64,000 nucleotides of DNA from Valencia hispanica (Eukaryota > Chordata > Actinopteri > Cyprinodontiformes > Valenciidae): positions 32,529,849 to 32,593,848 of the forward strand of contig OY747721.1 of the NCBI GenBank assembly GCA_963556495.2, read 5' to 3'. Positions within the stretch are counted from its first letter, which is position 1; every line of letters starts with the position of its first letter. Below the pieces are notes generated by a model that had not been told where the DNA came from, ran no database searches, and worked only from the letters and a program-made list of their open reading frames with translations. Shown here one piece after another: positions 26,709-61,983 of this stretch. A program made the position numbers and the translations under genes.

Positions 26709-29686
26709 CTAACTATAAGCTTTATCAAAAAGGAAAGTTTTAAGCCTGGCCTTAAAAGTAAACAGAGGGTCTGCCTGACGGACTAAAACTGGGAGCTGGT
26801 TCCACAGGAGAGGAGCCTGATAACTAAAAGATCTGCCTCCTATTCTACTTTTAGAAATCCTAGGAACTACAAGTAAACCTGCAGCCTGAGAGTGAAAGGC
26901 TCTGTTGGGAACATATGGAACAATTAGATCTCTGATGTATGATGGAGCTTGATTATTAAGGGCTTTGTATGTAAGAAGAAGGATCTTAAATTCTATTCTG
27001 GATTTAACAGGGAGCCAATGAAGGGAAGGTAAAACAGGAGAAATGTGATCTCTCTTTTTAATATTCATCAGAACTCTTGCTGTCGCATTTTGGATCAACT
27101 GAAGGCTTTTAATGGCATTTTGTGGACTACCTGATAGTAAAGAATTACAGTAGTCCAGCCTTGAGGTAACAAATGCATGGACTAGTTTCTCAGCATCACT
27201 CCTGGACAGGATGTTTCTTATTTTAGCAATATTCCAGAGGTGAAAGAAGGAAATCCTAGAAACCTGTTTAATACGGGATTTAAATGTCATGTCCCGGTCA
27301 AAAATAACGCCGAGGTTCTTCATTTTACCACTGGGGGCCAGTTCAATGCCATCCAGATGAAGTGATTGACTAATCAGTTTCTGTTTTAGAACTTCTGGTC
27401 AAAAGACAGCAACTTCTGTCTTGTCAGAATTTAAAAGCAAAAAAGTTTAGATCCATCCATGTTTTTATGTCTTCCAGACATGCCTGTAATCTACCTAACT
27501 GACTGGGTCCATCAGGATTTATGGATGAATATAGTTGTGTATCATCGGCATAGCTGTGGAAATTTGTCCCATGCTGTCTAATGATTCTACCAATTGGAAG
27601 CATATATATGGTGAAAAGAATTGGTCCAAGCACAGAACCCTGTGGAACTCCACAAGTAACCCTTGAGAGTTAAGAAGATTGAGATTTAGATGAACAAACT
27701 GGAATCTATCAGACAAATATGATTTAAACCAGCCTAGTGCTGTTCCTTTGATCCCTGCAACATATTCAAGCCTTTCTAAGAGAATATTATGATCGACTGT
27801 GTCAAAAGCAGCACTGAGATCTAACAAGACCAGAACAGACACAAGTCCATTATCTGAGGCCATGAGAATATCATTAGTAACCTTCACCAGTGCTATGATG
27901 AGCTCTAAAACCTGACAAACTCTTCAAAACAGCTCGTTACTGTTTAGATGCTCACAGACTTGATTAGCAACTATTTTCTCAAGGACTTTGGATAAGAAAG
28001 GAAGGTTAGATATAGGTCTGTAATTCACCAAGTCATCTTGATCAAGGGAAGGTTTCTTGAGTAAAGGTTATATTACAGCTATTTTAAATTCTTGTGGTAC
28101 GTATCCGTTTACTAAGGATAGAGTCATCATATCCAAAATGGGGCCAGGAACCAAATGGAACACCTCCTTAAATAATTTGGTTGGAATTTGGTCCAACATA
28201 CAAGTTGAAGGTTTAGATGAGGCTAATATTTTTGATAATTCCGAAAGCTCGACTGAATCAAAACAGCCTAAGCACAAATGAGGTTCTACAGTTCTTTCTG
28301 ATGCTGCGTCATTTACTGAGGAAGAAGTAATCATGTTTGGGAAGATGCTAAGGATTTTATTTTTAATAGAATTAAATTTATTTATTAAGAATCCCATAAA
28401 ATCATCACTGCTTAGAGCTGGGGGAATAGTTGGCTCAACAGAGCTATGACTCTGTGTAAGTTTGGCAACTGTACTAAAAAGAAACCTAGGATTGTTTTTA
28501 TTCACCTCTATTAATGTGAAAAATATGCTGTTCTAGATTGTCGAAGGGTCTTTTTATACAGCAGTAGACTGTTATTCCAGGTTAAATAGGAATCCTCTAG
28601 ATGTGTAGAGCGCCATTTTCTCTCCAACTTCCTAGTATTCTGCTTTAAAGTATGCAACTCAGCGTTAAACCAAGGAGTCAGCCTCTTATGGCTAGCCACT
28701 TTCTTTTTTAAGGGGGCTACACTATCTAATGACGCAATGAGGACGTAACGCTTTGAACCAGACCATCAATTTCTGAAGGGTTAGAGATAGAATTGCTGTC
28801 ATCCACTGTGTTACTCTGAGACACTGAGGAAAGTAAGAATGGAACAGATTCTTTAAAGATTGTTACAGCATTGTCTGATAAAGCTCTACTATAATGAAAT
28901 TTTCTTTCAGATTTAAGATGGTCAGTTAAAGTAAATTCAAAAGTTAAGAAGTGGTCAGACAGGACCGGGTTATGTGGGGGGACTGTTATTTCCTCACACT
29001 CAATACCATATTTCAGTACAAGGTCCAAAGTGTGTTTACCCGAGTGGGTCGATCCCTGTACTTTTTGAATAAAGCCAATTGAGTCTAAAATAGCACTAAA
29101 GGCTGCATTTAGGCTATCACTTTCAGTATCCACATAAATATTGAAGTCCCCCACTGTAATGACCCTATCAGTATTTAATACTAAATCAGATAAAAAATGT
29201 GAGATCTGATCCAAGAATTGAGAGTGGTGGTGGACGATACAAAACCACAAACAAAAATGGTCTTAATGTTTTGCAACTTGGATGAGGAAAATTAAGGGTT
29301 AGATGTTCAAAAGAACTGTAGCTATCAATTGGTCTGGGACTAATTAGTAAATCAGAATGAAAAATGGTTGTAACTCCTCCTCCTCGCTCAGTACTTCTAG
29401 GAATCTGAAAATTTAAATGACTGGAAGGAGTTGACTCATTTATACTGACATTATCCTCCTGCTGCAACCAGGTTTCTGTGAGACAAAGGAAATCAATGTG
29501 ATTATCACAAATCAAGTCATTTACTAACAAAGTCTTTGAGGAGAGAGATCTTATGTTTAACAAACCACATTTAATAGATTTATTTTTCTGTTCAGTCAAA
29601 GTTGTATTTATCTTTATGAGATTTCCATAATTTGCTTTTGTTGGGTTAACTTTTAATCCATTTAATTTTGGCCGTGGGCAAGACAC
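26709..29686 (-). pseudogene. L2 LINE ORF2: endonuclease plus reverse transcriptase, frameshifted
   Basis: Open pieces on the minus strand: 29686-29186 (endonuclease start, [12 protein letters not shown]), 29250-28726 (GDFNIYVDTESDSLNAAFSA and SDH motif), 28699-28511, 28505-28068 (pre-RT), 27887-27519 (RT box A), 27633-27424 (RT box C with YADD) and 27323-26709 (RT C-terminal, SRLDYCNSLLSG, ending FKARLKTFLF). Neighbouring pieces overlap in different frames, which marks at least four frame breaks. In an active copy this protein nicks target DNA and copies its own RNA in place. Confidence 0.85.
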
Positions 29687-29779
29687 TGTTTCTATAGGGT
29701 AATGGGTGGGTAACAGTACAGAAGCAGCAGAGAGGTGGGTTAAACTACGACTCTGCTTCCTGGTCTGGACCCTGGGTTG

Positions 29780-30577
29780 TCAGTGTTTTGGAGGATTAAT
29801 AAATTCGGCCATATTCCTAGAAAGAAGAGCTGCTCCATCCAAAGTGGGATGGATGCCATCTCTCCGGATCAGACCAGGTTTTCCCCAAAATGTTCTCCAG
29901 TTATCAATGTAGCCCACATCGTTTGCAGGACACCACCTAGACAACCATTGATGGAATGACAGCATGCGGCTAAACATGTCGTCACAGGTCCGATCACGCA
30001 GGGGGACCAGAGAAGAATACCGAGTCTGACATGGTTTTGGCAAACTTACACACCGAAGCAACACTAATTTTAGTGACCTCCGATTGGCGTAACCGGGTGT
30101 CATTACCGCCAGCGCGAATAACAATCTTACTGTATTTACGCTTATCTTTAGCCAGCAGTTTCAGGTAGGATTTGATGTCGCCCGTTCTGGCCCCTGGCAA
30201 ACATTTGACTATGATCAATGGTGTCTCTAATGCCACGTTTCTGACTATGGAGCTGCCAATTACCAGGGTTGGCTTCTCAGCGGGTGTGTCGCTGAGCGGG
30301 GAAATCTGTTAGAAACGCGGACGGGTTGGTGGTGGCCCGGGGGCTGGGTACTAGAACTATGCTTCCTATGTACCGTCACCCAGCCGGCCTGGGGTCCCGG
30401 CTGCGCGGGCTCTATCGGAGGTTGGCTAGGGGGTTCTATCCTTGTTGGCTCCGCCCTGGCTAATGGGCTTCGGCTATCAGCTGGTTTTTCAACAGGGCGG
30501 AGCCGTGCTTCTAATTCTGATACCCTCGCCTCAAAAGCTACAAAAAATATTACATTTATTACAGTTACCATTATCAC
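29780..30577 (-). pseudogene. L2 LINE ORF1 with SGNH-esterase-like domain, broken
   Basis: The N-terminal piece (30577-30260) has a short coiled-coil-like start (EARVSELEARLRPVEKPADS) and a proline-rich stretch ending near WVTVHRKH. The next pieces (30236-29994 and 30124-29780, different frames) carry [13 protein letters not shown], matching the G-x-N-D block, and [18 protein letters not shown], matching the D-x-x-H catalytic block of SGNH hydrolases. Esterase-type ORF1 proteins are known from some CR1/L2 elements in fish. A frame break separates the two catalytic blocks. Confidence 0.75.
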
Positions 30578-33960: not shown

Positions 33961-34399
33961 CACTACTGGACAATGGCCCCCATGCATGACACTGTTACAG
34001 CTTTGTAAAGTGACCAGCATCATCATGTGTATTGCAGCTGTTTCCTACCAGCAGCTGTTAGACAATCAGCATTTCTATCAGCAAAATAGACAAAACTGTT
34101 TAGAAGCCTGATCTTCCTTCCACAGTTCTCAATATTCCTGAACATGGCCTATTTTTGCACAAATACAAAAAGCTACATTTTTACAGTTATACAAGTGTTT
34201 TGAGACAAAGTATGTTAGTATATTCAATTAGCTGAATTTCCTCATCAGCAGTCATTCAGCTCAGGAGAGGCCTGGAAACGAGTCATTGATCTGATTCAGC
34301 TCTAGAGGACTGGACTTGGACACCCCTGGTTTAAGACCTCAAGTCTTGTAATGACCTAATGTATGCAGCAATTTTGGGTTTGCTATACAACTTCTGCAC

Positions 34400-35330
34400 G
34401 CAGAAATACGATTCATTGGTGGAATCAAACATTTGACTCAATATACCCCAAACCGGATACTGCGGTTAGGGATATACGTACTCTCACCATTTCGTTTCCC
34501 TCTGTACACCTCAGACTTCCAGTACAAATCAGAGACCTGTCATCTGCAGAAATACTCAGATGACTCTGCAATTGTTGGGTGTATCAGAGATGGACAAGAA
34601 GCTGAATACAGAGAGCTGGTGGACCGCTTTGTGACATGGTGTGGAAACAATCGTCTTACTTTAAATGTAAATAAAACAAAGGAGATGATTGTAGATTTCA
34701 GCAGAAACAGGGATAAGTCAAACACTGTTTCCATCATGGGAGAAGAAGTGGAGGTGGTTGAGGAGTATAAATACCTCGGAGTTCACCTTGACAACAGACT
34801 GGACTGGAGACTGTACAGTGAAACCGTCTACAAGAAGGGACAGAGCAGACTGTACTTCTTGAGGAAGCTTAGGTCCTTCAAGGTTTGCAGCAAGATCCTG
34901 CAGATCTTCTTCAAGTCTGTTGTGGAGAGTGTAATCTCTTCAGCCGTCATCTGTTGGGGTAGCAGCATCAGAGCCAGGGATTTAAAAAGGCTAAACAACC
35001 TGATAAAGAAGGCTGGTTCTGTTCTGGGGACGACTGTGGAACCTCTGGAGATGATGATGCCAAGAAGGATTCTTCAGAAAATCAAAAAAATTATGGACAA
35101 CCCTGAGCATCCTCTTCATGAGACTGTCATACAACAACAGAGTGTCTTCAGTCGGAGGCTTCTTCAGTTTCGCTGCAATACAGACCGCTACATGAAATCC
35201 TTCCTGCCCACAGCCATCATCATCTACAACAACTCCTTAAAGAATTAATTATATGAGCTACAACAACACTTAATTTCCCTCTGGGATCAATAAAGTATTT
35301 TTGAATTTGAATTGAATTTGAATGTTCCAA
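34400..35330 (+). mobile_element. Rex1-type LINE, 5'-truncated
   Basis: One open frame (34433-35248) covers the later half of a reverse transcriptase: KYSDDSAIVG (the polymerase YxDD box, with Ser in place of the usual Ala), LNVNKTKEMIVDFSRN, YKYLGVHLDNRLDW, AVICWGSSIRARDLKRL, AGSVLGTTVEPLEMM and MKSFLPTAIIIYN. It is followed by the tail ccctctgggatcaataaagt and gaattt-type repeats to about 35330. The N-terminal endonuclease is missing. An uninterrupted frame of more than 250 codons suggests a younger insertion than the L2 at 26-31 kb. Confidence 0.85.
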
Positions 35331-36101
35331 TTGTTACTATATTTAGCATCTGCTAGCAACAACACTAATTAATCTTTTTTTTATCTCGATAGAATTGTAA
35401 ACCAATTCAATAAGAGAGGTCAGGGTTTTATAACTTTTAAATAATATTTATCTGCACACCAGTTCAGCACCCTGGTTGACCTGTTTGACAAAGGTCAGGC
35501 TACGGACTAATGTAAATTTACTGGTTAAGACGTTAGAGCTCTTTACAGAGCATCACATTTTGATGAATTTGATATGAATTTATGTAATTTTTCATGTAAC
35601 TGAATTTTTAATTTTTATGTTTTTTTGTTTTTGTTTGGATTGACTGTAAAGCTCTTTGGTAACCTCAGTTGTTTTTAAATGCGCCATACAGACACAATTC
35701 ATATTGACTTCTGGGATTCTATGTTATTCCTTATGGTTATGTTAAAAAATATGAGTACAACAGGTGGTGTTTGCTGACTCACCATCACACATTTAGACTA
35801 GTATATTGTAGTGGCTGCCTTGCTCACAGTTTCAGCCCTGATTGCTTCCACAGTTATCTGAAATATCTTTGAAATTTTGGACACAATGTATGATTATGTT
35901 AATGTTAGATTGGCGCCGTCAAATAATCTAATTGGCTGTCTCATTTGCTTGCCACAGGAAGGTCTGATTTTTGCGCAGCTCTGACTTCACTGAAGATGCA
36001 ACCAATTAGCCCACTGATTACCAGCAGCTGAGTTGTGACCATCAGAAGTTTTCTTTTGCCTGCTCAGCTGAGGGATGAGTTTTCAATTGGTGGCTGCCAC
36101 A
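35331..36101. other. Upstream region of the sequon-repeat gene
   Basis: No repeat boundary or TATA box is obvious. Two CAGCTG E-boxes (36025-36030 and 36065-36070) lie just upstream of the start codon, and accaatt sits at 36001. E-boxes of the CANNTG type are used by oocyte factors such as FIGLA in fish egg-coat genes, but this short motif also occurs by chance. Confidence 0.3.
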
Positions 36102-39100
36102 ATGGGAACTGTTTGGCTTCTGCTGGTCTGGGTACTGATGTGTTGGCCCTCCGAAGGTTGGATGTGTAGTGAGAAGTTTTTTTTTTTGTTTGTTTTTTTT
36201 TACAAACCAGAAGATTGAAAGTGTCATAAGCAATGTGTTCAGTTTTTCTCATCCTGGCATTTAAAAAAAAACAGTAATTGGTGCAACTGAAGATACGGAT
36301 CATTAACTTTAGTTTATTTTGTCTACAGGCATGGATATGTCAGTCATTGGAGGAACAAAAAGGGATAAAGAGGAACTCCAGGGAAGCTGGAAAGGTAGTG
36401 TTAATAGTTTTAACCATTCATTTAAAGGCTACTTTTGAACAGAAACTACGTCTCTTTTTACAGTGTTGTCTCCAAATCATATCTCCATAAAGACCCTTGG
36501 GCTTGTCAAGTCAATGGATTCTATGTCGGAAAACCAAGTTAAAGCGGGTGAGTAAATTTGATCATGCTAGGGAGTTGATGGCTGAGGGTTTTTTGTTGTT
36601 GTTGTTGCTACATCTTAGTTTTATTTTTGCTATTGGGCAAGAGTAGTCCAACCAGATTGCTACAGCCTCTTCTTGGGTAGGAAAGGGAATGTAAAAACTG
36701 TGCTGAAAGCTACATACACTATCTTAAAGATTTTTCTGAATTGGTCATTCTAATTGCTTTTAATTGTTTTTGTTTTTTATTTTTACAGTACTCTTGGAAA
36801 AAAATGAAGTTGAAACTCATACCTCACTTGGACATGTGAGACTTCAGGGGCTGGACAGGGCAGGAAAACTGAAAGTTGAACAATATAATGAAATGACTTC
36901 CATCAATGTGACTATAGCTACTGCTACCAATGGGACAATTTTTGCCAGCAATGAGACTGTAGCTGGTGCCAACTGGACTGTAATTGCAAGCAATAAGACA
37001 GTGGGTAGTGCCAATGGGACTATAGCTGCCAGCAATAACTTGTCCAACATCACAGAGACTGTGGTTAGCACAAAGTTGACAGTGTTTGTGAGCAATCAGA
37101 CAGTGACCAGTACCTATGGAGCAATGGTCAGTGTCAACACTGACAAAAGAATGGTGGTTGCTGCAACCATGACTGTTGCTGGCATCAATGAAACTATAGT
37201 TGCTGGCAACAAGACTGTGGCTGGCACTAACAGGACTGTAGTTACTGAAAAAGACTCTGTGGCTGGTTCTTCTGGGACTGTGGTTCTGGGGAACAAGATG
37301 GTGGCCAGGACCAATGACGCTGCGGCTAGCACCAACAAAACTGTGGTTAAGGGCAACGTGATTGGGACAGTTTCAACAAATGAAACTGTACTTGCTGGCA
37401 ATGCCACTGGGGCCGCTGCCACCAATGCCACTGGGGCCGCTGCCACCAATGCCACTGGGGCCGCTGCCACCAATGCCACTGGGGCCGCTGGCAGTGCCAC
37501 TGTGGCCGCTCCCACCAATGAAACCGTGGTTCCTGGCAATGTGACTAGGGCCATTGTCGCCAATGAAACTGTGGTTGCTAGCAATGTGACTGAGGCCAGT
37601 GGAAACAAAACTGTGGCTGCTGCCATCAATAAAACGGTGGTTCCTGGCAATTTGACTGGGGCCACTGCCACCAATGAAACTGTAGTTGCTGGCAATGTGA
37701 CTGGGGCTGGTGGCATTGTGACTGGTGCTACTGCCACCAATGAGACTGTGGTTGCTCACAACGTGTCTTTGGTAGCTGCCACCAATGAAACTGGGGCCGC
37801 TGGGAACGAAACTGTGGCTGCTGCCACTGATGAAACTGTAGTTGCTGGCAATGTGACTGAGGCCAGTGGAAACAAAACTGTGGCTACTGCCATCAATAAA
37901 ACTGTGGTTCCTGGCAATGTGACTGGGGCCACTGCCACCAATGAAACTGTGGTTGCTAGCAATGTGACTGAGGCCAGTGGCAACAAAACTGTGGCCGCTG
38001 ACTCCAACAATACTGTGGTTGCTGGCAATGTGACTGAGGCCAGTGGAAACAAAACTGTGGCTACTGCCATCAATAAAACTGTGGTTCCTGGCAATGTGAC
38101 TGGGGCCACTGCCACCAATGAAACTGTGGTTGCTAGCAATGTGACTGAGGCCAGTGGCAACAAAACTGTGGCCGCTGACTCCAACAATACTGTGGTTGGT
38201 GGCAATGTGACTGGGGCCAGTGGCAACGTGAGTGCGGATGCTGGCACCCATAAAACTGGGGCCAGTGGCAACGAAACGGTGGCCTCTAAAACTATTGAAA
38301 CCGTGGTTCCTGGCAATGTGACTAGGGCCATTGTCGCCAATGAAACTGTGGTTGCTAGCAATGTGACTGAGGCCAGTGGAAACAAAACTGTGGCTGCTGC
38401 CATCAATAAAACGGTGGTTCCTGGCAATTTGACTGGGGCCACTGCCACCAATGAAACTGTAGTTGCTGGCAATGTGACTGGGGCTGGTGGCATTGTGACT
38501 GGTGCTACTGCCACCAATGAGACTGTGGTTGCTAACAACGTGTCTTTGGTAGCTGCCACCAATGAAACTGGGGCCGCTGGGAACGAAACTGTGGCTGCTG
38601 CCACTGATGAAACTGTAGTTGCTGGCAATGTGACTGAGGCCAGTGGAAACAAAACTGTGGCTATTGCCATCAATAAAACTGTGGTTCCTGGCAATGTGAC
38701 TGGGGCCACTGCCACCAATGAAACTGTGGTTGCTAGCAATGTGACTGAGGCCAGTGGCAACAAAACTGTGGCCGCTGACTCCAACAATACTGTGGTTGCT
38801 GGCAATGTGACTGAGGCCAGTGGAAACAAAACTGTGGCTACTGCCATCAATAAAACTGTGGTTCCTGGCAATGTGACTGGGGCCACTGCCACCAATGAAA
38901 CTGTGGTTGCTAGCAATGTGACTGAGGCCAGTGGCAACAAAACTGTGGCCGCTGACTCCAACAATACTGTGGTTGGTGGCAATGTGACTGGGGCCAGTGG
39001 CAACGTGAGTGCGGATGCTGGCACCCATAAAACTGGGGCCAGTGGCAACGAAACTGTGGCCTCTAAAACTATTGAAACTGTAATTGCTGGCAACGTGACT

Positions 39101-40135
39101 GTGGCTGCCAGCAACGTGTCTTTGGTCACTGCCACCAATGAAACTGGGGCCCCTGCCACCAATGAAACTATAGTTGTTGGCAATGTGACTGGGGCTGGTG
39201 GCATTGTGACTGGTGCTACTGCCACCAATGAAACTGTGGTTGCTGGCAATGTGACTGGGGCTGGTGGCATTGTGACTGGTGCTACTGCCACCAATGAGAC
39301 TGTGGTTGCTGGCAACGTGTCTTTGGTAGCTGCCACCAATGAAACTGGGGCCGCTGGGAATGAAACTGTGGCTGCTGCCACTGATGAAACTGTAGTTGCT
39401 GGCAATGTGACTGGGGCTGGTGGCATTGTGACTGGTGCTACTGCCACCAATGAAACTGTGGTTGCTGGCAACGTGTCTTTGGTCGCTGGCAACGTGTCTT
39501 TGGTCGCTGCCCCCAATGAAACTGGGGCTGCTGGGAACGAAACTGTGGCTGCTGCCACCGATGAAACCGTAGTTGCTGGCAATGTGACTGGGGCTGGTGG
39601 CATTGTGACTGGTGCTACTGCCCCCAATGAGACTGTGGTTGCTGGCAACGTGTCTTTGGTCGCTGCCACCAATGAAACTGTGGCTGCTAGGAACGAAACT
39701 GTGGCTGCTGGCACCGATGAAAGTGTGGTTACAGGCACCGAGACTGAGGTCGACACCAACAGGACTGCAGATGCCAGGAATAACTCTGTGGCTGATCTCT
39801 ATGGGACTGTGGTTCCGGGCAATAAAACAGCAGATGGTGCCATTGGGACTGTGGCCTGTGGTAATGCTGCCAATGGGACAGTACTTGCTGTGAATGAGAC
39901 CGTGGCCGGCGCTAATAAAACTTGGTTTATTGGCAATGTGACTGTGGCCGCCACTGGCAACAAGACTGTGGATGGAAGCAACAAGACTTTGGTTAATGCC
40001 AATGGGACTGTGGCAAATGCCACCTCCAAGTGGACCTTGGCCACTACCAATGTCATCACCGCCAACACTGCCAGGGATACTGTGGCTGCCATCAAAAAGA
40101 CTGGGGTTGCTGATGCCAGCAAAGGGAGTTTTTAG
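36102..40135 (+). CDS. Secreted sequon-repeat glycoprotein, hyosophorin-like (four exons, 1,183 aa)
   Basis: Exons 36102-36156, 36329-36394, 36464-36547 and 36789-40135; all three introns are phase 1 with GT-AG borders. The ATG has a strong context (ACAATGG) and opens a signal peptide, MGTVWLLLVWVLMCWPSE. About 85 unique residues follow (including HTSLGHVRLQGLDRAGKLKV), then about 1,080 residues of degenerate repeats such as NETVVAGNVTGA, with about 114 N-x-T/S sequons spaced mostly 7-9 residues apart. The protein is almost free of Cys and aromatics. The unit resembles hyosophorin, the N-glycan-loaded tandem-repeat protein of fish egg cortical alveoli released at fertilisation (medaka unit DAASNQTVS). 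The hyosophorin name is inference; a mucin-like secreted protein is the alternative. Stop TAG at 40133-40135. Confidence 0.75.
37399..37490 (+). repeat. Short perfect array of 24-bp units in the sequon exon
   Basis: Four successive NATGAA(A)-type units (AATGCCACTGGGGCCGCT plus GCCACC, 24 bp each) encode NATGAAAT repeated. This is the most uniform micro-array in the exon and probably a recent slippage expansion. Confidence 0.85.
37521..39074 (+). repeat. 777-bp tandem duplication inside the sequon-repeat exon
   Basis: 37521-38297 and 38298-39074 are two adjacent copies of 777 bp (259 codons). I found only three differences: cac/aac near 37757, act/att near 37886 and acg/act near 38277. The duplication keeps frame. 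Within each copy a smaller 177-bp unit (59 codons, from 37841 and again from 38018) is itself doubled. Confidence 0.9.
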
Positions 40136-40200
40136 AGTTTCTGATCCTTAGAATAGGAAAGCTCACAATCAAGATTTTGCTTGAGTATGTTTATCTGATA

Positions 40201-40206
40201 AATAAA
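40201..40206 (+). promoter_or_regulatory. Polyadenylation signal of the sequon-repeat gene
   Basis: AATAAA 66 bp after the stop codon, followed by a T-rich stretch. It gives a very short 3' UTR. Confidence 0.65.
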
Positions 40207-45959: not shown

Positions 45960-46826
45960 TTCCAATGACACTTCTTAACTACACTCTTGTGTGTTAAGAA
46001 AAGAAGCTTCCAACCTTGGATTCTGGTCCACGTACTCAACACGTTGGATTCCGCCAAGGGTGCCCTCTTGTCCTCAACTTAATATGTGGCGTCTATGGCA
46101 GGGATCTCAGGACACAGTCACAGAGAGGCAGATTTTTGGTTTGGGAACCTCTGGGTCTATCATTTTACGTATGATGTGATTGTTGTTTTCATTAAGTGCA
46201 AGTAATTCACAGCTGAGAGTGAGAAGACTAGGATAAGAGTTAGATCTTCCAAATCCGCGGCCGTTCTTCTCAACTGGAAAAAAGGTGGATTGTTCACTCA
46301 TGGTTGGGAGTCAGTCTTGCCCTCAAGCAGAGAAGAGGTTCATTTATTTTGGGGTTTTCCATCTCAAGTGTTGGGAAAATACAGTGTAAAATAGACAGAT
46401 TGGAGAATTGGTTATGACCCAAGAAACAAGATCCAGAATAAAAGTGGGAGAAATGAACTTCCATTGTAGGGAAAAAGCGGTAAGCCTCGGAGATCGAGTG
46501 AGGAGCTCCATCGTTCCCGGGGAAGCTTGAAGTAGCGATGCGGCTCCACCACATCAAAAGGAGTCAGTGGAGATGGTTCTTGCCTCTGATTGCAATGCCC
46601 TCGGTTTATTTGAGCACATTTCCCTCGGAGGGGACCCTAGAGCAAATCCAGAACTTGCTGCGGTTAGTATCTTATGTCCTGGAAACTCCTTGGAATCCCA
46701 CAAAATGAGCTGGAGAGTGTTGTCAGGAAGAGGGATGTCCGGTTTCCCTCCTGGACTTGTTTCCCCTTTGACCTAATCTCGGATAGGCGATGGATGGATG
46801 GATGGATGGATGGATGGATGGATGGT
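45960..46826 (+). mobile_element. Rex3-like (RTE) LINE 3' fragment ending in GATG repeats
   Basis: Contains wording of the RTE-type 3' coding and UTR region (acctaatctcggataggcga at about 46771) and ends in a run of GGAT/GATG repeats at 46788-46826, as Rex3 elements do. A frame near 46000-46180 reads GFWSTYSTRWIPPRVPSCP and WQGSQDTVTERQIFGLGTSG. Degraded; the family call rests on the tail and general wording. Confidence 0.55.
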
Positions 46827-52143: not shown

Positions 52144-54888
52144 ATGCGGTGGATGCTGTTTCCACGGTGGATCTTATTCCTGGCGTGCGCGTCTGCGTGG
52201 ATGGAGCTCAGCGGCGCAGTTCTGCCCCGCGTCACCTATTCGCACACGGGCATCTGCCCCAATGAGATGAACCCCAACTTGTGGGTGGATGCCATGAGCA
52301 CCTGCACACGGGAATGTGAATCTGATGAGGTAGTTTACATTTGTATCCCTAGTATGCAAAAGAGTTTTAAAGTTTGTTATATGCATGCAAAATAACTATT
52401 TTAGTGTCTTCCTAAAGTGTTCACATCCTTTAAACTTTTTTTTATGTCTTCTTCCTTATGACCACTAACTTTCTGGATTTCATTGATTGACCAAAAAGTA
52501 TTACATAATTGCAAAATAAATGGAAATTGATGGAGGGTCTTCAGATTTGTGTGGCTTTAGCTCCAGTGAATCAATACTTGGTAGAATTACCTTTCTCTGC
52601 AAATCCTTCTTTGGATAATAGCTTAAACTCAGTCAAATTAGATGGCTGTCTTCCCACTGATTCTTTATTTATTTTAAATTTGGACTTTGACGGCGCCACT
52701 ATAACGCATGAATCTGTACTTAGCCCCCCTGCATCTTCCTAATGACTCTGACCAGCTGCCTGTCCCTGTCCAAGACACACATTGCCACAGCATGATGCTG
52801 CCACCACCATGTTTTAGCGTAGTTGAAAATTAGGCCTGAACCTTCAAATTTGCAAGGAAGTTTATTTCTATGGTACCTTTCTCAAAAAGAAAGCCACAAA
52901 GTGCTTCAGCTGAATCTAGCGAGCATATAGAGAGCGGAAGATCATTCAGATGGAAGATCATTCTTCCAACTGAGGACATTCTTCCATATGTCTGCTCTCC
53001 CTCCCCCTGCATGGCAAATTGAAACCGAACTCCTTATCACTTTCATTCAACAATTTCTTTTTTCGCCTGAGCTCACGTCATCTTGTTACCACAGGCATGT
53101 TAACAAGCTGAATAGAAATACCCACCATGCTTTGGGTTAATATGTCTAAACCCCCCCCCCCACCCCAATCCAAATAAAATACCTGACATTTGTGTTTGTT
53201 CAAGAAGTGAGGTTCTTTTAGCAAGGTTTTGTATTGTTTTCATTGATTGCAATATATTGTGTTGAGCACTTCCTGACTTGTAAAATCCACCCCATGCACC
53301 GAACATCCTTCATGTGTGATTTTCTTTTTCACTCTTACAGGAGTGTGAGTCCTTTGAAAAGTGCTGCCAAAATGTCTGTGGGAACCGCAGCTGTGTTGCT
53401 GCCCGCTACGTTGATGGGAAGAAGGGCCCTGTGGGAATGCCCAAAGAAGCATCCTGTGCCAGCTTTATGTGCACCCAGCAGGGCTCCAAGTGTGTCATCT
53501 GGGATGGCCACCCCATGTGTAAATGCCGGGACCGCTGTGAGAAGGAACCAAACTTTACCTGTGCCTCAGATGGCATGACTTACTACAACAAGTGTTTCAT
53601 GGATGCAGAGGCATGTTCTAAGGGCATCACCCTCTCGGTTGTCACATGTCGTTTCCACCTTACCTGGCCCAACACAAACCCCCCACTTCCCCAGGTGACC
53701 ACGCTTCGACCTACGACTGTTCCCCTTCAGGCCACCATTCCACATCCAATGGAAACTGAACAACCTGTGTTGGTCACCAGTCCCATTCACCAGACTGTAA
53801 ATGTGGGTGAAACAGCTAGCTTCCAGTGTGATGTCACAGGTCAACCCCGGCCTGAGATCACGTGGGAGAAGAGGCTGCCCTTGGGAGTGGCAAGGGTGGT
53901 CATGAGGCCCAATAATGTGTGGGGCAACATGGTGGTCACAAACATCGGACAGCTGGTCATCTATAACACCCGGCTGCAAGATTCCGGCATCTATACCTGC
54001 ATGGCTCAGAACCCGTCTGGTTCTCTCCAGGCCCACCACCCACTCACTGTACTGTCAACAGAGGTGTTCAGCACTCCAGGGGCCAGGAACCTGACTCGCT
54101 GCCTCCCAGAAGAATGTCAACAACCCTTTGATAGTCCCGAGGACTGTCGAACGAAGCTGGAGAAAGTCAGCTGGTACTATGAGCCCAAATCCAACAACTG
54201 CTTTCCCTTTACACACTGCCACAGCAACAACGACCAGCCACCCAGTAAGGTTTTCGACACATACGAGGATTGCATACAGTGCTGTGGCCCGGAGTTGTCT
54301 GGGCCCTGTGGACTGCCCGCCCTGCAGGGTCGCTGTAAGGTGTACGAGCCTCGGTGGGCATACAGCAGCACCATGCGTGAGTGTCAAACCTTCATCTATG
54401 GAGGCTGCGAGGGAAATGACAACAACTTTGAGTCAAAAGAGGTCTGCGAGGAGATGTGCCCCTTCCCAAAAAACCACCACTGCAAAGCATGCAAGCCAAG
54501 AGGCAAGATGGTGACGAGCTTCTGTAGGAGCGACTTTGTGGTCTTGGGTCGCATGACAGACATTACACAAGAGAAAGACTCAGGCCACGCCCTTGTGACT
54601 GTGGAGGAGATCTTTAAAGACGAGAAGATGGGGCTGCGCTTCTTCGGCAAAGAACCTCTTGAAGTCACTTTCCTCAACATGGACTGGAACTGCCCGTGTC
54701 CAAACATAACGGGTGCGGCTGCAGAAGGTCAGGTCATCATCATGGGCAATGTCAGCGAAGGCATGGCCGTCCTTCAGCCTGAGAGCTACGTGGGCACTTC
54801 CAGCCCCCGTCGTATAAGGAAACTGAAAGAGGTCATCTCTAAGAACACCTGCGACATTCTCAAAGCAATCACAAACAGCCCTCAGTAG
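52144..54888 (+). CDS. wfikkn2: WAP, follistatin/Kazal, immunoglobulin, Kunitz and netrin domain protein 2
   Basis: Two exons, 52144-52329 and 53341-54888, phase 0 junction, 577 residues (human WFIKKN2 is about 576). Order seen: signal peptide (MRWMLFPRWILFLACASAWM); WAP with eight Cys (ICPNEMNPNLWVDAMS to CGNRSCVAARY); follistatin/Kazal (CKCRDRCEKEPNFTCASDGM); Ig domain (ASFQCDVTGQPRPEITWEK to DSGIYTCMAQNPSG); Kunitz 1 (from CLPEECQQPF, atypical spacing); Kunitz 2 (CGLPALQGRCKVYEPRWAYS with YGGCEGNDNNFES); NTR domain (ACKPRGKMVTSFCRSDFVVL to the end). The family is secreted, inhibits serine proteases through Kunitz 2, and binds GDF8/GDF11. The 52144 start was chosen because it opens a signal peptide and matches the family length. 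Confidence 0.96.
52415..52820. mobile_element. Tc1-like fragment in the wfikkn2 intron
   Basis: The left part has tgttcacatcctttaaactt and gattgaccaaaaagtattac; the right part has ccacagcatgatgctgccac (52787-52806). No open transposase frame. It accounts for much of the 1.0-kb intron. Confidence 0.6.
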
Positions 54889-61276: not shown

Positions 61277-61550
61277 CATATAATTGGAATGATTGAAATT
61301 CAACAACTTCCACTTCCTTTATGAGAACATGTTAGCATCAATAAAACGGGACATGATTTCATCTTGAAGATGGTTGAAAATCTGAACACCCAGACTGTTC
61401 TGTTCTGTCTGATACGGCCCATGTGAACAGTTGCCCAGGGCAGCAATAAATAGGAAGATGCATGACCTCCAGATAAAATGTGTCCTTTATTTTCTAAGAC
61501 TGGGCATGCTCAAATCACTATTCATGCAAGAACCACCACTGGGAGTAATA

Positions 61551-61600
61551 TTCAATTCAATTCAATTCAATTCAATTCAATTCAATTCAATTCAATTCAA
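61551..61600. repeat. (TTCAA)10 microsatellite
   Basis: Ten perfect TTCAA units. The same pentamer occurs at the ends of the L2-type LINEs here (attcaattcagtttattta), so the array probably grew from a LINE tail. Confidence 0.95.
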
Positions 61601-61983
61601 TATATTCCAGTATCTGCATGAAGTTTCAGGATGCTTCTTATGTCTGTTGCTCCAATACAAAGGGTTGAAAATGTCCTTTGGGACATTGGACATTTTTGTC
61701 CAAAGCTGTTTTAAGAATCAGGACCTTCCATCTAAAAAGCTATTGTTGACATTGTTTTATTACGCAAAGCTAACGTTTTACTGTACAGTGTGGATTACAT
61801 CTTTTCTTAGATTTGGTCTCAAACTTTGAGGTCTTTCACTCTGATTTTCCTCTTATTATCTCCCATCATTCTTCATCACACCTAATATAAACAAAAGCAT
61901 GTTGTGCGACTGCAGTAACTTCTCTTCTTGTCAGAAGGCCTTTGCCTAATGGTCATCCCTTTTTTGTATGCACAATGTTGCAA

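Follow-up and report, generated by a model that had tools for sequence, protein, structure and literature searches.

Fish eggs are the place for which tandem N-glycopeptide polyproteins have been described in the accessible passages of two papers (PMC9630641, PMC3528131). Hyosophorins, according to the accessible part of a review, are cortical alveolus proteins that are 80–90% carbohydrate and consist of tandem identical peptides, and one from Fundulus heteroclitus is mentioned there (PMC3528131); their high carbohydrate content and bulky N-linked glycans are recorded in the passages of both papers (PMC3528131, PMC9630641). Salmonid polysialoglycoprotein (PSGP), which the review calls the first hyosophorin to be isolated, is described there as a chain of tridecapeptides, each with three O-linked glycans that bear polysialic acid; on release at fertilisation it is said to generate a colloid osmotic pressure by which the perivitelline space swells (PMC3528131). 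Zebrafish Ngly2, as presented in passages of a further paper, is a PNGase-F-like, ovary-enriched enzyme that has been proposed to act on hyosophorin (PMC12753239). Throughout the papers that were accessible, hyosophorins are treated as egg biochemistry.

Here we describe a gene whose predicted product carries an extreme density of N-glycosylation sequons, located in a stretch of 64,000 nucleotides from Valencia hispanica (hereafter the window, meaning the whole stretch of DNA analyzed). No description of this gene was found in the literature covered, in which subscription papers are thinly represented, and it is absent from the accessible passages of PMC12753239, PMC13079451, PMC9630641, PMC3528131, PMC9855834, PMC6983019, PMC10672638, PMC6193065, PMC13207093, PMC9102325, and PMC4750078.

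Gene structure

Four exons on the forward strand (36102–40135) join in frame to give a predicted protein of 1,183 residues, with GT..AG borders and phase 1 at all three introns, as the sequence-only reading had proposed together with a polyadenylation signal. Exon 1 (36102–36156, + strand) supplies the start codon, ends in phase 1, and encodes a hydrophobic, signal-like N-terminal segment, MGTVWLLLVWVLMCWPSEG, read by eye as a predicted secretory start. Exon 2 (36329–36394, + strand; 66 bases, CAG acceptor and AAG/GTAGTG donor) and exon 3 (36464–36547, + strand; 84 bases, CAG acceptor and CGG/GTGAGT donor) are both in phase 1 on either side. Exon 4 (36789–40135, + strand) contains the rest of the unique N-terminal region, the sequon array, and the stop codon (TAG, 40133–40135), and an AATAAA polyadenylation signal is located on the same strand at 40201–40206. 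The hydrophobic start and the AATAAA would be compatible with a secreted, polyadenylated product.

Two details of the 5' end permit a second choice. The exon 1 donor may be at 36157 (AAG/GTTGGA) or at 36169 (GTA/GTGAGA), both in phase 1, their strengths having been judged by eye against consensus frequencies; the donor 12 bases further on would add four residues, WMCS, including a third cysteine. A second in-frame ATG is present at 36075, upstream of the exon 1 start. The near absence of cysteine noted earlier was confirmed in the protein as modeled, which contains two, at residue 14 within the signal-like segment and at residue 1092. Release from the cortical alveoli at fertilisation and proteolysis into small glycopeptide units are hyosophorin traits; of possible cleavage sites, dibasic pairs were counted, and only three occur in the whole predicted protein.

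The sequon array

The array follows the first 107 residues and extends from the first Asn codon to the end of the last sequon (36905–40024, + strand). It holds 114 N-x-T/S sequons within 1,040 residues, of which 103 are N-x-T and 11 are N-x-S, and Pro follows none of them. About 114 sequons had been claimed from the letters alone, and the count agrees; 2,000 composition shuffles of the protein gave a mean of 30.0 (SD 4.4) and a maximum of 45. Expressed per 100 residues there are 9.6 sequons here, as compared with a mean of 0.7 and a maximum of 1.4 among the 120 listed WFIKKN2 proteins that served as a yardstick.

The sequons are arranged on a grid. Of the 113 sequon-to-sequon intervals, 58 measure 7 residues, 31 measure 8, and 16 measure 15, which leaves 8 of other lengths; the mean density is one sequon per 9.1 residues. 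Parsing the array into units by dynamic programming, with the outermost sequons as its limits, yielded 143 units. Of these, 91 have 7 residues and 49 have 8, 140 in all, and the other 3 are odd; two of the 114 sequons lie off the grid. The repeat had previously been called irregular, a description that the 7/8-residue grid replaces. The flanks of the array consist mainly of 7-residue units. Its center mixes units of 7 and 8, and therefore 15-residue pairs recur, for example NETVVAG-NVTGATAT.

With a parse whose scoring rewards N and S/T and hence favors finding them, 112 of the 143 units contain both, 25 contain S/T only, 4 contain N only, and 2 contain neither. Three of the 25 S/T-only units are located near residues 160–187, where the parse register slips, leaving 22 without them. 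Because these 25 units lack Asn (the three in the register-loss stretch included), N-glycosylation is impossible in part of the grid. The S/T-only units descend from a small number of types that were copied, with IVTG seen six times, DETV four times, and HKTG and IETV twice each. Separately, the Asn-less grid units (within 36905–40024; residues 160–1087) mostly retain Thr/Ser, a retention for which an N-glycan carrier has no need. The higher retention of S/T than of Asn across units is only partly accounted for.

The array contains an internal tandem duplication. Its first copy (37519–38301, + strand) and second copy (38296–39078, + strand) are offset by 777 bases, differ at 3 of 783 positions, and overlap by 6 bases, as is normal for a tandem repeat; the largest near-identical blocks of the array derive from it. 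Among self-match offsets shorter than 1,600 bases, the 60 strongest are without exception multiples of 3, and the leading one is 777 bases. To judge from these offsets, the array was enlarged by in-frame steps.

Selection on sequons and spacers

Divergence between copies was compared by codon class over 22 aligned segments (1,161 codon pairs), with the second 777-base copy excluded. The pN/pS ratio was lowest for the sequon Asn, 0.21 (0.15–0.27), followed by the sequon Thr/Ser at 0.48 (0.14–0.82, a wide interval), the middle residue of the sequon at 0.85 (0.60–1.17), and the spacers at 0.98 (0.84–1.11), as if these were neutral; all of these intervals are rough and indicative because the aligned segments overlap. 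What selection retains is the sequon, and the direction of the contrast is clear. Selection appears to preserve attachment sites and not a fold, and constrained sequons set against neutral spacers would be an example of selection acting on glycan attachment alone.

Counts of replaced residues give a different weighting of the two sequon positions. A sequon S/T was lost in 4 of 150 pairs (2.7%) as compared with 38% for S/T elsewhere, whereas Asn was replaced in 32 of 144 pairs (22%, interval 16–28), as compared with 29% (25–32) for spacer A/V/G, the intervals being rough for the same reason as above. Judged by replacement counts, the constraint on Asn is therefore only weakly above that on spacers, whereas by pN/pS it is strongly so. 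The closeness of Asn replacement to the spacer rate is explained in part by a few Asn-less units (IVTG, DETV, HKTG, IETV) that were copied along. When the second 777-base copy was included (40 segments), S/T was lost in 12 of 371 pairs and Asn in 65 of 356.

Searches for relatives and fold

The first 152 residues gave no match in Pfam and none in the PDB. A 479-residue query against a protein database gave no match to its residues 1–125 among 110 candidates (E up to 0.1; proteins of about 264–838 residues), and the full protein gave none at E up to 0.01 among proteins of about 651–2,070 residues, in a search that scored only the 8,000 candidates with the most words in common and in which low complexity may have cost matches. 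Within these Pfam, PDB, and protein-database searches the N-terminal region is an orphan. It had been put forward as the place to look for kinship, and it matched no other protein family and no hyosophorin either. A Shal-type domain in exon 4 scored 17.3 bits in Pfam, below the cut-off of 23, and was rejected. AF2 produced a usable fold neither for the start of exon 4 (pLDDT 41, single sequence) nor for a repeat segment, which it modeled without confidence (mean pLDDT 34, from 5 aligned rows only).

Comparison with hyosophorins

The array resembles the N-glycan hyosophorins of medaka, flounder, Fundulus, and other fish in that it comes from a fish and is built of short tandem units with an Asn sequon, with little else in the chain. 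It differs from them in several respects: they consist of one identical peptide, whereas here 7- and 8-residue units occur in mixed order and numerous versions; the gene has an orphan N-terminal region; and no sequence match was found. The medaka unit is reportedly a nonapeptide, going by the title of a 1989 paper by Kitajima. Against what we take to be the sequence of that nonapeptide, the best array unit agrees at 5 of 9 positions, and 491 of 500 spacer shuffles reach at least 5. The proposal of a hyosophorin-type protein in the sequence-only reading is supported in part, by the signal-like start, the tandem sequon units, and selection on the sequon, and finds no backing in kinship to the medaka unit, where the fit is no better than that of shuffles.

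A single glycopeptide isolated from eggs, an octapeptide, has an Ala-Ser-Asn-x-Thr core that is also present here (FASNETV, IASNKTV); the remainder of its sequence differs from the units of this array, and its gene does not appear in the accessible passages. PSGP is likewise a carrier of dense glycans on tandem repeats in fish eggs, but its units have 13 residues with O-glycans, whereas those described here have 7 or 8 with N-sequons. With respect to carbohydrate content, 114 potential sites allow a share as high as that of hyosophorins: if all were filled with glycans of 2–6 kDa (assumed masses), carbohydrate would make up 67–86% of the product. Because no sequence relative was found in the searches above, the medaka unit fits no better than shuffles, and the array is not a repeat of one identical peptide, we claim a likeness of working and not membership in the hyosophorins.

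Proposed function and alternatives

We consider it probable (roughly 0.6) that the gene encodes a secreted glycopolyprotein of hyosophorin type that belongs to the cortical alveoli of the oocyte. A carrier of the same kind is the simplest reading because of the hyosophorin build, the osmotic role of PSGP, and the estimated carbohydrate share. For where the protein is made and stored, how it is glycosylated and processed, and what osmotic effect it has, we infer the following course. The growing oocyte would produce the sequon-array protein, and N-glycans would be attached in the ER along its unfolded backbone. The glycoprotein would be kept in the cortical alveoli until fertilisation and then be released into the perivitelline space, where its dense glycans would pull in water and the space would swell; processing by proteases and by the acid PNGase Ngly2 is possible. 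Should the product belong to the egg, it would be a candidate natural substrate of the recently identified Ngly2. Closely spaced N-x-S sites are reportedly skipped by the STT3A complex, according to passages of one paper (PMC4750078). At a spacing of 7 residues, some sites of this array may stay empty, although 103 of its 114 sequons are N-x-T.

The likeness to hyosophorins may have arisen independently. We regard it as a tentative possibility that this is a lineage-restricted orphan gene of killifishes and their kin, of its own origin, that converged on the hyosophorin design. With equal reserve, we suggest as part of the same reading that selection holds the sequon grid alone, at a 7/8 spacing that is shorter than the medaka nonapeptide and with neutral spacers. 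The gene would then encode a carrier for which glycan density is the only selected trait.

It is rather unlikely that the product is a densely N-glycosylated secreted protein from elsewhere, such as ovarian fluid, egg envelope, seminal fluid, mucus, or gut, with a separate origin and only a hyosophorin-like design. The sequon, grid, and pN/pS evidence would suit any sugar-carrying scaffold, homology to hyosophorin was not found, and the searches made left the N-terminal region an orphan; nothing speaks directly against such a source, but the tandem N-glycopeptide polyproteins described are those of fish eggs.

An improbable alternative is that the Thr/Val pattern forms a folded beta-solenoid or an O-glycosylated mucin-like rod to which Asn is secondary. 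Such a structure would account for the excess of S/T-only over N-only units, with or without the three doubtful ones, and for the rarity of S/T loss relative to Asn loss in the aligned pairs. It is countered by the pN/pS of Asn, the lowest of any class, by the origin of the S/T-only units in a few copied types, and by the AF2 result on five aligned rows; the 13-residue O-glycan unit of PSGP, moreover, does not fit a 7/8 period.

Two antisense frames of the exon 4 stretch contain only 2 and 6 stops and are thus nearly open; open-frame length is therefore weak evidence for a gene. The former of the two contains 43 N-x-S/T, as compared with a mean of 15 in its own shuffles. A crude substitution ratio was 0.77 in the + frame, the lowest of the six frames, and 0.91 in one antisense frame. 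That there is no working gene, merely an open minisatellite or a gene on the antisense strand, is very improbable: the antisense frames, the nearness of the two ratios, and tandem growth in 3-base steps, which by itself holds a frame open, would permit it, but the + frame has the lowest ratio, constraint falls on sequon codons and not on spacers, and the signal-like peptide, the three phase-1 introns, and the AATAAA are all on the + strand. The antisense frame with 2 stops includes a 924-residue open frame opposite the array (37373–40147, − strand), which we take to be a by-product of codon usage.

Genomic setting and copy number

The gene is placed between an ABCC1/3-like gene upstream and WFIKKN2 downstream, which makes the locus one at which the origin and turnover of such carriers could be traced across fish. 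One piece of the upstream transporter was compared with the PDB and is closest to ABCC1 and ABCC3, and ABC domains are present in two further pieces. A protein search with WFIKKN2 (53344–54888) returned 322 matches, fish included, of which the best 120 were used; among the matches listed, those from Poecilia (88%) and Fundulus (87%) are closest. In a tree of 15 rows, made up of the window and 14 relatives hand-picked among the 120 listed, Poecilia, Fundulus, and Cyprinodon are grouped with the window (100/100), which places it in a cyprinodontoid fish, of the killifish and livebearer group.

In the genome (1.29 Gb, 29 contigs), the N-terminal region matches this locus alone at E up to 0.001. 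The array has no credible second copy: of its 20 matches, 19 fall on the array, including one to its antisense strand, and the remaining weak match, at C14:615830–616060 (E 0.025), was dropped because it lies in a simple-repeat stretch. At C14:612000–619999 there are two arrays of simple repeats, each with more than one open frame, from which this chance match to the sequon array originates. The rest of the window showed no paralogue, the best match outside the gene having an E of 0.61. A PNGase-F C-terminal domain is encoded on C12 as two pieces, one of which is interrupted by a TAG within its match, and we take this PNGase-F-type domain to be Ngly2.

LINE-like retroelement remains are located upstream of the gene at 26709–30160 (− strand) and 34355–35248 (+ strand). 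The latter gave a reverse transcriptase match just below the Pfam cut-off together with a domain named ALKBH8_N; two pieces of the former were scanned without a Pfam match, and its LINE reading was made by eye. Perfect microsatellites of GATG (46789–46825) and ATTCA (61550–61601) are also present in the window.
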